Below, piece after piece: positions 25,699 to 28,993 of a stretch of DNA of 64,000 nt; within the stretch, counting starts at the first letter, position 1; each line of letters begins with the position of its first letter. Below the pieces are notes generated by a model. It ran no database searches. It was given only the letters and a program-made list of their open reading frames with translations, and had not been told where the DNA came from. The stretch is from Pantoea sp. Cy-639 (lineage in GTDB: Bacteria > Pseudomonadota > Gammaproteobacteria > Pseudomonadales > Pseudomonadaceae). The stretch spans positions 248,001 through 312,000 of the forward strand of contig NZ_VWXI01000004.1 of the NCBI RefSeq assembly GCF_011752525.1. The letters are read 5' to 3'. Position numbers and translations under genes: made by a program.

Positions 25699-26811
25699 AT
25701 GAAACGTGTAGGTCTGATCGGTTGGCGTGGAATGGTCGGTTCCGTGCTCATGCAGCGGATGCTCGAAGAGCAGGACTTCGACCTGATCGAGCCGGTGTTC
25801 TTCACCACCTCCAACGTGGGTGGCCAAGGTCCGAGCGTGGGCAAGGATACCGGCCCGCTCAAGGACGCCTACAGCATCGACGAGCTCAAGACCCTCGACG
25901 TGATCCTGACCTGCCAGGGTGGCGACTACACCAACGAAGTCTTCCCCAAGCTGCGTGAAGCCGGCTGGCAGGGCTACTGGATCGACGCGGCCTCGTCCCT
26001 GCGCATGCAGGATGACGCGGTGATCATCCTCGACCCGGTCAACCGCAAGGTCATCGACCAGCAGCTGGACGCAGGCACCAAGAACTACATCGGTGGCAAC
26101 TGCACCGTCAGCCTGATGCTGATGGGTCTGGGTGGTCTGTTCGAGGCGGGCCTGGTCGAGTGGATGAGCGCCATGACCTACCAGGCGGCTTCCGGTGCCG
26201 GCGCGCAGAACATGCGTGAGCTGATCAAGCAGATGGGTGGTATTCATGCTGCGGTCGCCGATGACCTGGCCAACCCGGCCAGCGCGATTCTCGACATCGA
26301 TCGCAAGGTTGCCGAGGCCATGCGTGGCGAGGGCTTCCCGACCGAGAACTTCGGTGTGCCGCTGGCTGGCAGCTTGATTCCGTGGATCGACAAGGAGCTG
26401 CCGAACGGGCAGAGCCGTGAAGAGTGGAAGGCTCAGGCCGAGACCAACAAGATCCTGGGGCGCTTCAAGAGCCCGATTCCGGTGGATGGTATCTGTGTGC
26501 GTATCGGTGCGATGCGTTGCCACAGCCAGGCGCTGACCATCAAGTTGAACAAGGACGTGCCGCTGGCGGATATCGAGGGCATGATCAGTCAGCACAACCC
26601 TTGGGTGAAACTGGTGCCTAACCAGCGGGAGATCAGCATGCAGGAGCTGAGTCCGACCAAGGTGACGGGGACCTTGAATGTGCCGGTTGGGCGTTTGCGC
26701 AAGTTGAACATGGGGTCGCAGTACATCGGGGCCTTCACTGTTGGGGATCAGTTGCTGTGGGGGGCTGCAGAGCCTCTGCGGCGTATGCTGCGGATTCTGC
26801 TGGAGCGGTGA
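25699..26811 (+). CDS. asd: Aspartate-semialdehyde dehydrogenase
   Basis: A 370-residue NADPH enzyme making aspartate semialdehyde from aspartyl phosphate, feeding lysine, diaminopimelate, threonine and methionine. N-terminal NADP fold [18 protein letters not shown], catalytic C135 in GGNCTVSLM, and a conserved His in [18 protein letters not shown]. Length and sequence type match the gammaproteobacterial form. It is followed by a terminator and the repeat island, then by a non-catalytic paralogue. Confidence 0.98.
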
Positions 26812-26844
26812 TCGCTTTGGTTTGAGTTTCGTGGTGGATGGGGG

Positions 26845-26880
26845 AGCCTGTGCCTTGAGGGGTGCGGGCTTTTTCTTTTT
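26845..26880 (+). terminator. Probable terminator after asd
   Basis: AGCC-GTGCC / GGTGC-GGGCT stem (with two G-U pairs) 34 bp after the asd stop, followed by TTTTTCTTTTTTT. Confidence 0.7.
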
Positions 26881-26936
26881 TTGGGGGAGGTTTGCGTCAG
26901 GGTTTGGTTGTTTGGTTGTTTTGGTGTTGTGTGTGC

Positions 26937-27200
26937 ATTCATTTGCTTTAGCGACGCATAGTCACCTTTCCGCCCTTACGGCGGGTCACTTTTTGTCAAA
27001 CGCGACAAAAAGTAACCAAAAAACGCTGCGCTCCGTTCATCCGGCCCTACGCTTCGCTCCGGGTTCCTCCGCTCCGGCGTCTTGCGGGCCAGCGCGGCCT
27101 CCGACTTGCTACGCAAGTCTACATCTCGCGCCCTCGGCGTAGCCGAGGGGTGCTGCGCACCTGGCCCTCCAGACGCCTGCGCTCAGCCTCCTGAAGTCGC
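26937..27200 (+). repeat. Dispersed repeat element, left inverted copy
   Basis: About 264 bp, recognisable again in reverse at 27610-27873 with roughly 80 per cent identity by eye. It runs from near CGACGCATAGTCACC to CTCCTGAAGTCGC. It contains several small hairpins: CCCTCGGC-GTA-GCCGAGGG, CTTGCTACGCAAG, and CCGCCCTTACGGCGGG. I recall such elements as common in Pseudomonas intergenic regions; no transposase or clear terminal repeats. Confidence 0.85.
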
Positions 27201-27263
27201 GAAAGTACGGGCGGCGACTGGGATGGCGCAGCTGTCGCTAGCAGAGCTTCGCGTGATCTTGCC

Positions 27264-27356
27264 GGCCCCATCGCTGGCTCCGCCAGCTCCCACATTTTCC
27301 GCCGCAGGCCGGCAGGCCGCCGGTTGTGGGAGCTGGCGAAGCCAGCGATGGGGGCC
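27264..27356. repeat. Inverted pair of REP-like elements
   Basis: Arms of about 31 bp (27264-27294 and 27325-27356), with core CCATCGCTGGC and GGGAGCTGGCGAAG, around a 30-bp GC-rich loop. Same family as the large hairpin at 59967. Confidence 0.85.
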
Positions 27357-27474
27357 GAAAGCTATACATTTAGGTTACAGACCAAACAGGCATATGTTCG
27401 ATAGAAGCATCGGTTGATAAAACAGGTGCCCACTGCCAAACAATTCCCGGAAGGTTATTTAAAGTTTCAAACTT

Positions 27475-27570
27475 CTTGCTCTTGCTCTTGCTCTTGCTCT
27501 TGCTCTTGCTCTTGCTCTTGCTCTTGCTCTTGCTCTTGCTCTTGCTCTTGCTCTTGCTCTTGCTCTTGCT
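27475..27570. repeat. Tandem hexanucleotide tract, 16 perfect CTTGCT units
   Basis: Sixteen uninterrupted CTTGCT units (AGCAAG on the minus strand), 96 bp. Lies between the two inverted copies of the 264-bp element, next to the right one. Perfect short tandem arrays mutate by slippage, so copy number should vary between strains. Confidence 0.97.
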
Positions 27571-27609
27571 TTGGCTTGTAAGCGCGCAATAGTCCAGGCG
27601 ACACCTATT

Positions 27610-27873
27610 GCGACTTCAGGAGGCCGAGCGAAGGTGCCTGTAGGGCCAGGTGCGCAGCACCCCTCGGCGTAGCCGAGGGCGCGAGATGTAGACTTGCGCA
27701 GCAAGTCGTAGGCCGCGCTGGCCCGAAAGGCACCGTAGCGAGGGGACCCCGAAGCGAAGCGTAGGGGCCGGATGATGGAGCGAGGATTTTTTGGTTCCTT
27801 TTTGATCCTTCAAAAAGGGACCCGCCGTAAGGGCGGAAAGGTGACTATGCGTCGATAAAGAAAACGAATGCGC
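27610..27873 (-). repeat. Dispersed repeat element, right inverted copy
   Basis: Reverse-oriented partner of 26937-27200, from GCGACTTCAGGAGGC to about GACTATGCGTCG and beyond. The internal hairpins are conserved even where the sequence differs, suggesting selection or homogenisation on structure. Confidence 0.85.
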
Positions 27874-27988
27874 ATACATCTATCAAAACCACCCCCCCTG
27901 AACCCCGAACCCGAACCTACCCCAATCCCCATAATCCAAGTAAAGTGCCGCCCCCGCCATACCCGCAGAAGCAGAAGGAGCCCAGCCC

Positions 27989-28993
27989 ATGACTACCCCT
28001 CCAGACATCGCCATCGTCGGCGCCACCGGCACTGTCGGCGAAACCCTCGTGCAGATTCTCGAAGAGCTGTCCTTCCCTGTCGCTACCCTGCACCTGCTGG
28101 CCAGCATGGAGTCCGCTGGCAGCAGCGTCATGTTCGCGGGCAAGAAGCTGAAAGTCCGTGAAGTGGATAGCTTCGACTTCACCCAAGTCCAACTGGTGTT
28201 TTTCGCTGCCAGCCCCGCCGTCAGCCGCAGCTTCGCGCCCAAGGCCCGCGCCGCCGGCTGCGCGTTGATCGATCTGTCCGGTGCCCTGGACGGCGCCATG
28301 GCGCTGGTCCCGGAAGCCAACGGCGAGCGCATTGCCGACCTGCCGCAGCCAGCGCTGATCACCAGCCCAAGCGCCGGCGCGGTCGCCCTGGCCGTGGCGT
28401 TGGCGCCACTCAAGGACCTGCTCGAGATCGAGCGAGTCCAGGTCAATGCCTGCCTGGCCGTCTCCGAGCAGGGCAGGGAAGCCGTCAGCGAGCTCGCCCG
28501 CCAGACCGCGGAACTGCTCAATGCCCGCCCCCTGGAGCCCCGCTTCTTCGACCGCCAGGTCGCATTCAACCTGCTGCCCCAGGTCGGTACCCCCGACGAC
28601 CAGGGCCACACGGCAGTAGAACGCCGCCTGGTCGGCGAACTGCGCCAGTTGCTGGACCTGCCGCAACTGAAGATTTCCGTGACCTGCATTCAAGTCCCGG
28701 TGTTTTTCGGCGATAGCTTCAGTGTGGCCGTGCAAAGCCGTCGGACAGTCGACCTGGCGGCGGTCAATGCCGCCTTGGAAAACGCCGAAAGTATCGAGCT
28801 GGTCGAGCCGGGTGACTATCCGACACCGGTCGGTGACGCAGTGGGCCAGGACGTGGTCTATGTTGGTCGTGTACGCCATGGTGTCGACGAGGACCAGCAA
28901 CTCAACCTCTGGCTGACCACCGACAACGTGCGCAAAGGTGCGGCACTCAACGCCGTACAGGTGGCGCAATTGTTGATAAAACACATGGCGTAA
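27989..28993 (+). CDS. usg: Asd-like protein lacking the catalytic cysteine (Usg type)
   Basis: A 334-residue member of the semialdehyde dehydrogenase family with an intact Rossmann start (IAIVGATGTVGETLVQIL). Where Asd has the catalytic Cys (GGNCTV), this protein reads SPSAGAV with Ala near residue 129, so the thioester chemistry cannot occur. This matches the Usg proteins, Asd paralogues encoded near asd and fimV-truA in pseudomonads, of unknown role. The C-terminal domain (CIQVPVFFGDSFSVAVQS) keeps the dimer fold and a VTCIQVPVFFGDS region similar to Asd. Cofactor binding may persist as a regulatory or structural function. Confidence 0.88.
   Translation: MTTPPDIAIVGATGTVGETLVQILEELSFPVATLHLLASMESAGSSVMFAGKKLKVREVDSFDFTQVQLVFFAASPAVSRSFAPKARAAGCALIDLSGALDGAMALVPEANGERIADLPQPALITSPSAGAVALAVALAPLKDLLEIERVQVNACLAVSEQGREAVSELARQTAELLNARPLEPRFFDRQVAFNLLPQVGTPDDQGHTAVERRLVGELRQLLDLPQLKISVTCIQVPVFFGDSFSVAVQSRRTVDLAAVNAALENAESIELVEPGDYPTPVGDAVGQDVVYVGRVRHGVDEDQQLNLWLTTDNVRKGAALNAVQVAQLLIKHMA

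Follow-up and report, generated by a model that had tools for sequence, protein, structure and literature searches.

The 64,000-nucleotide stretch of Pantoea sp. Cy-639 DNA analysed here (NZ_VWXI01000004.1, positions 248,001 to 312,000; "the window") harbours one copy of a dispersed, hairpin-rich, palindromic and probably non-autonomous element. Each element is typically built of two structured arms, A and B, paired in inverted orientation and with short tandem tracts at the edges. It is present in some species and absent from others, and in most of the genomes tested its orientation relative to the replication fork is fixed. The best reading of these observations, held tentatively, is a mobile element without a gene of its own that is tied to single-stranded DNA at replication forks, and whose edge tracts would have grown by slippage. 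If a repeat present in up to tens of copies per chromosome follows the fork this strictly, it would be a mobile element coupled to the fork, for which no enzyme is known, or else a site that organises the chromosome.

The island lies between an upstream gene (25699-26811), which we take to be asd from its open reading frame, and a downstream gene (27989-28993), presumably an asd paralogue. This position was as given in the initial annotation, which had also reported two inverted copies of about 264 bp around a 409-bp spacer containing a REP pair and a perfect hexanucleotide array. An inverted-repeat search and an alignment recovered the same arrangement, with arms 85% alike over approximately 290 bp and a spacer (27201-27609) holding the REP pair and 16.2 copies of the hexanucleotide at 100% match. 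The inverted-repeat matches were located at 27058-27205/27605-27752 (86%), 26928-26995/27811-27878 (91%) and 27008-27067/27744-27803 (70%). Just outside arm A, a short repeat (GTTTGGTT, 2.5 copies) was called by TRF at 26902-26921, which corresponds to positions 91-110 of the intergenic stretch. Arm A runs outer to inner on the plus strand (26935-27200, 266 bp; alignment and HMM), has a type II multi-hairpin cassette, ends in ..CCTCCTGAAGTCGC, and scored 145.6 bits with R1, a covariance model of the outer ~140 arm positions built from 20 arms. It is followed by inner module A (GAAAGTACGGGCGGCGACTGGGATGGCGCAGCTGTCGCTAG; 27201-27241, plus strand), which is like the modules after A arms in loci L016 and L023 and in genome G104, and by the inverted REP pair (27258-27361; halves 27258-27294 and 27325-27361, 89% complementary). 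The perfect (TCTTGC)16.2 tract (27474-27570, TRF) adjoins inner module B (AATAGGTGTCGCCTGGACTATTGCGCGCTTACAAGCCAA on the minus strand; 27571-27609), which is like those after B arms in L016-L018 and in G104/G110. Arm B is read outer to inner on the minus strand (27610-27871, 262 bp, aligned at 85% identity to arm A; R1 match 162.4 bits), and its outer terminus (TGGTTTTGATAGATGTATGC on the minus strand, 27872-27891) is similar in L017, L018, L023 and L024. The right outer edge (27892-27925) is a degenerate A/C-rich short repeat (..CCTGAACCCCGAACCCGAACC..), read from the sequence and not called by TRF. The same place in relatives is occupied by a CCTGAA tract (L027) or an AAGCCG tract (L024), both called by TRF, or by GAAGCC repeats recognised by eye (L030).

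The 20 aligned arms measured 249-273 bp from the GCATTC at the outer end to the inner end. The order from the outside is a terminus (GGTTTTGATA..TGTATGCGCATTC), a CCGCC/GGCGG hairpin, a long A/T-rich hairpin and a G+C hairpin. A multibranch cassette, which exists in two types and has an outer stem closing it, comes next, and the conserved inner end CCTCCTGAAGTCGC completes the arm. One of two modules adjoins this inner end. Module A (GTCGCGAA.. or GTCGCGAG..) is usually continued by GGCGGCGCCTG..GCAGCTGTCGCTAG, and module B (GTCGCAA.., GTCGCAT.. or GTCGCGATCTG..) is usually continued by ..CGCGCTTAGAAGC and a tract. The elements occur in two layouts, outer-facing (tract, B, central tract, A, tract; for example L150) and inner-facing (A, REP-like spacer, tract, B; the window). 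By our own sorting, the 60 loci fetched from five complete genomes comprised 40 outer-facing elements, several of them interrupted by insertion sequences, 19 inner-facing elements and one single arm. Two units in inverted orientation were thus found in 59 of the 60, a share that is overstated because the regions were picked mostly for two close matches; unpaired matches also exist.

The arm hairpins, described in the initial annotation as conserved despite divergence, keep their pairing, and none of 500 shuffles reached the covariation score in either of two alignments. Each structure was derived from the alignment on which it is scored, which favours it. The first alignment, A3, consists of 10 arms from relatives; 98.2% of its 656 pair cells were paired over 11 helices, with changes on both sides in 17 of 66 pairs, and pairing fell to 38-51% when the partner was slid. 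In the second (A1, 19 distinct arms including both window arms) 98.6% of 437 cells were paired. Weaker measures were matched by chance more often: "further pair types" were reached by 241 (A3) and 117 (A1) of the 500 shuffles, and "pairs with a change on both sides" by 51 for A1. The strand that folds was assessed on 97 distinct arms, from the 102 of 119 aligned rows kept after rows with at least 25 gaps were dropped. Watson-Crick pairs filled 5936 of 6323 cells, compared with 1681-2212 when slid; these arms are related, so the counts are not independent. Among the Watson-Crick-majority pairs (three G-T-majority pairs left out) there were 52 G-T and 41 A-C cells, and single helices leaned opposite ways, the closing stem to G-T and the outer stem of the cassette to A-C. 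As no single RNA strand explains this mixed lean, the arms are predicted to fold as a conserved multi-hairpin without strand preference, for which DNA is at least as likely as RNA.

Tandem tracts, defined as units of 4-12 bp in at least three copies with at least 85% match, were found within 160 bp of the inner arm end in 90 of 118 arms and past the outer end in 102 of 119, but in none of 259 control windows of the same loci. The controls, taken at least 250 bp from the arms, were largely coding sequence; where a pair is outer-facing, a single central tract may be counted in both of its outer windows. The units were diverse. With the two strands of a unit kept apart, there were 25 distinct ones at inner ends (AAGAGC, AAGATC, AACGGC, AACAGC, AAAGCC and 11-mers among them) and likewise 25 at the outer ones (AAAGTC, GGTTCG, GGTTGTTT and others). 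At the asd locus, for stretches of 100-3900 bp, arm sequence was accompanied by a tract in 11 of 12 intergenic stretches (the window included), compared with a tract in 1 of 55 without arm sequence (Fisher p 1.1e-10). Slippage had been suspected in the CTTGCT array, and a comparison between species, with one genome per species, revealed that the array does differ at this locus. The unit beside module B is TCTTGC in the window (16.2 copies), in L023 (5.2 copies) and in G104, an 11-mer in L027 and L024, and TTGCTG in L030 (10.8 copies). The tract may well slip; a "switch" acting on asd expression is an unsupported guess. The simplest reading of the tracts would be seed repeats that grow and mutate by slippage.

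A genome-wide search with the arm detected several places in the organism's own genome, often as inverted pairs (13 matches at E≤0.01), in agreement with a repeat that is not confined to asd. R1 matched 183 of 199 Pseudomonas species genomes and left 16 without a match (E≤0.001; strict filters, 16 candidates per genome scored). Across the order it matched 34 of 244 genomes in 13 of 112 genera (E≤1e-4, own genus included), and across the class 19 of 274 genomes in 18 of 222 genera (E≤1e-6). The scores fall outside Pseudomonas, and the arm model fades beyond the genus. In five complete genomes of relatives 172 arm matches were obtained at E≤1e-5 (G104 43, G110 70, G091 38, G163 7, G190 14). The 11 outer-facing copies of G104 were 91.4-99.8% identical (median 96.5%), and the flanks of different copies had no detectable similarity. 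The closest copies, L161 and L162, are 99.8% identical and lie in unrelated places. Degraded copies (L015, L017-L020) are also present.

The asd site was read in 80 relatives, of which 57 had both genes on the contig, 13 had contig ends, and in 10 no asd was found upstream. Arm sequence was present in six of the 57 (L023, L027, L030, L047, L048 and L061). The gap between asd and the paralogue was 111-308 bp in 44 of the 57, and 925-1129 bp in the five with two arms. In the 13 interrupted contigs the break lies less than 700 bp upstream of the paralogue, and five of them carry arm pieces; the element probably causes assembly breaks at this locus. In two relatives (L035, L053) about 3.4 kb separates the genes, without arm matches, and an element-free relative (L022) has a long near-perfect palindrome (..GCGCCCTTGAGATCGAGCGCCGC..) in the same intergenic site. 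The inner-facing layout occurs at asd in the window, L023, L027, L030 and G104 (L169), and the outer-facing layout in L048 and L061; the site has therefore been filled or rebuilt more than once. Empty sites elsewhere were sought with the joined flanks of four G104 elements, for which many genomes matched one flank and were uninformative. For the L162 site, the flank matches lay 47-575 bp apart in 12 genomes, a gap shorter than the ~800-bp element, so the site lacks the element in those genomes; for L157 the flanks were 97 and 133 bp apart in G007 and G015. Target-site duplications and exact junctions were not readable at these sites, as the empty-site relatives are too diverged.

Orientation was measured relative to the fork with oriC set at dnaA and the terminus assumed opposite. 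Of 14 genomes, 13 contain a dif-like site, recognised by a motif that we take to mark the terminus, and it lies no more than about 0.2 Mb from the assumed position. In G104, G110, G091, G163 and G190 every typed A arm runs outer to inner with the fork and every B arm against it. All 118 typed arms (59 with, 59 against; those of the 172 matches with a readable inner end in fetched loci) follow this rule, in both layouts and on both replichores. A script pattern labelled 102 of these arms; the other 16, of which it left 14 unlabelled and mislabelled two, were assigned by eye from the module sequence. As the five genomes are related, their elements are not all independent. Of the flanking genes, 69 point along the fork and 41 oppose it, and all four arrangements occur; transcription direction therefore does not account for the polarity.

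In eight further complete genomes types were not assigned and most lengths were rounded, and the counts refer to the matches listed (150 of 189). Unpaired arms among these listed matches were with/against the fork 12/0 in G005, 14/0 in G061, 20/0 in G062, 14/1 in G111, 8/2 in G010, 7/3 in G017, 4/3 in G020 and 1/13 in G029. The higher-scoring arm of close pairs, again among the matches listed, was 1/0, 1/0, 5/0, 3/0, 1/1 and 9/0 in the first six of these, none in G020 and 1/2 in G029. On these matches four genomes were near-perfect, two partial, one mixed and one reversed. In G015, the pairs counted by hand had no polarity (8 with, 7 against) and the unpaired arms were 10/3. A fork-orientation bias of the kind known for IS200/IS605 elements was thus found, with G015 (pairs), G020 and G029 as exceptions. 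In G029, dnaA lies unusually near a second DnaA-like gene and the dif-like site was not found, for which reason its origin may have moved; origin relocation or an assembly inversion is a possible cause of the reversed polarity.

This orientation hints at how the element spreads or at what it does. In the tentatively preferred reading, arms A and B would be chains of DNA hairpins around the multibranch cassette, and the element would move as folded single-stranded DNA exposed at forks, by an enzyme acting in trans rather than one from the element itself. The edge tracts would be seed repeats that grow, shrink and mutate by slippage beside the hairpins. Moving as fork-exposed single-stranded DNA would fix the orientation relative to the fork; a fork-fixed orientation, arms that fold from one strand and the lack of an own gene are the traces expected of single-strand transposition in trans. 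Mobility through single-stranded DNA, the helper in trans and slippage as the source of the tracts are what we infer. The working analogy for the polarity is the IS200/IS605 family, whose members IS608 and ISDra2 target the lagging-strand template via folded single-stranded ends (PMC6006769). The element differs from that family in its long paired arms, and neither an HUH transposase gene nor a cleavage site was identified in it. A bolder version, which we regard as unlikely, would make it a new class of bacterial mobile DNA: two hairpin-chain arms forming a palindrome without a gene, which would insert at the fork in one orientation. Short tandem repeats, mostly of 6 bp, would cap or lengthen its edges again and again as a product of the end-joining step, and the two layouts would be one circular molecule opened at different points.

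The main rival to single-strand transposition is that selection keeps the polarity: the element would be a chromosomal site that works in one direction, serving fork passage, segregation, repair or nucleoid binding, and its wrong-way copies would be lost. This would explain a strict rule shared by both layouts in several genomes, copies on both replichores, and hairpins preserved over wide divergence. We nevertheless consider it rather unlikely, given that the G015 pairs, G020 and G029 break the rule and that the 16 of 199 genomes lacking a match (E≤0.001, strict filters) suggest a dispensable element. In addition, GGGNAGGG, which we take to be a KOPS-like motif, is absent from 135 arm matches on both strands, and the copies occur all along the chromosome instead of clustering around dif. 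The copies could also be inert remnants of an old mobile family whose likeness is maintained by gene conversion, with template switching mending the hairpins, tracts drifting by slippage and no present movement or function. The degraded copies and the tract units that vary from copy to copy would be compatible with this. Drift does not explain a strict polarity over whole chromosomes, and the identity of L161 and L162 in unrelated places also speaks against inertness, although gene conversion could produce high identity between copies as well; the chance of this explanation is small.

Smaller still is the chance that the arms are structured or regulatory RNAs, acting as transcripts or as terminators or 3' ends of the upstream gene. 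The strong compensatory changes and the intergenic positions, often after a gene end, are what such RNAs would produce, whereas the mixed G-T and A-C lean is not, and the two arms of one locus, being inverted, would be read as opposite strands. A search of 26700-28100 against Rfam 15 returned nothing above the gathering score; the five matches far below it (four miRNA models and one sRNA) all lay on the REP hairpin and none on the arms. The initial annotation had proposed a slippage switch and a spacer invertible by recombination between the arms, a proposal prompted by inverted arms around a perfect hexanucleotide tract; such a device might control asd or its paralogue. Arm-arm recombination would turn the inner modules round, and none of the 19 inner-facing elements (nine in G104, ten in G110) is inverted, which contradicts the inversion; the inner modules keep one fork-relative orientation in all 118 typed arms, including the 16 labelled by eye. 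Similar elements sit in unrelated places. Of the 57 relatives in which one contig carries both genes, 46 have no arm and no large insert between them (gap 111-516 bp), and the two with the 3.4-kb gap also lack arms. This control function is accordingly exceedingly improbable.

Several catalogued repeats resemble the element. REP/REPIN sequences with their RAYT (TnpAREP) enzymes are likewise intergenic, palindromic, arranged in inverted pairs and non-autonomous, and a REP pair sits in the window spacer. REPs are 21-65 nt long according to PMC6006769, whereas the arm is ~260 nt, with many hairpins in place of a short single one, and edge tracts. The many near-identical copies in unrelated flanks (11 in G104) are MITE-like; the edges of the element are variable tracts, and no autonomous copy was seen. 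Ppu-1 of P. putida is an intergenic family (617-bp model, 39 (28) members) with a common predicted stem-loop (RNAz 0.97); in description it is alike, and the portion of PMC2267715 at hand does not mention arms, tracts or polarity. The R0-R200 families of P. fluorescens are dispersed intergenic repeats, several with inverted repeats (Silby 2009, PMC2718517). Two of them approach the arm in size, namely R200 (320 bp, with 47 copies in SBW25) and R26 (352 bp); both are dispersed and intergenic as described, and differ in being tabulated without inverted repeats and, in the sections consulted, without paired arms, edge tracts or polarity (PMC2718517). By description, the element may already be catalogued as Ppu-1, R200 or R26. 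The paired arms, edge tracts and polarity had no recognisable description in the literature searched, which does not mean that they are unpublished, and four 15-letter arm pieces did not occur in it.

The arms were also inspected for coding capacity, helper genes and foreign origin. Four ORFs over the arms and tract had no Pfam domain, bar one low-complexity match below the cut-off, and arm lengths differ by non-multiples of three; coding was therefore rejected. A plasmid or phage origin was likewise rejected, with one 60-base match in one plasmid record and none in phages. A crude HUH-type motif scan of 190 loci detected no helper gene or autonomous copy, and a single ORF near an arm that looks like an ordinary RAYT. 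This ORF (L231 744-1277, minus strand, genome G028; NHLH..WQ..YIHMNP) lies ~220 bp from the arm amid REP-like inverted repeats, apparently its own, and its proximity is probably a coincidence.

Inserts of ~1.45 kb between arms in G110 and G091 were considered as helper genes and rejected, being insertion sequences with Pfam HTH_Tnp_1 and rve domains, of a family that we take to be IS3-type. The insert (1444-1446 bp) occupies the same point of the HP1 hairpin in nine loci of these genomes, as CGCCGT/IS/CGTAAGGGCG or a near equivalent (L143 746-2191, HTH_Tnp_1 and rve; also L144-L147, L149, L198, L200 and L201). It has its own ends inside the arms that contain it, and appears to use the arm repeat as a landing site; ISPpu9, which is reported to land in REPs (PMC8450116), is a parallel. 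The element offers a repeated landing site for one insertion sequence, and its edges, where short tandem tracts adjoin hairpins, form natural series in which slippage could be studied. L147 has a further insertion at 753-2299, in the other arm of its element, with a transposase pair (rve; HTH_Tnp_1) different from the first.
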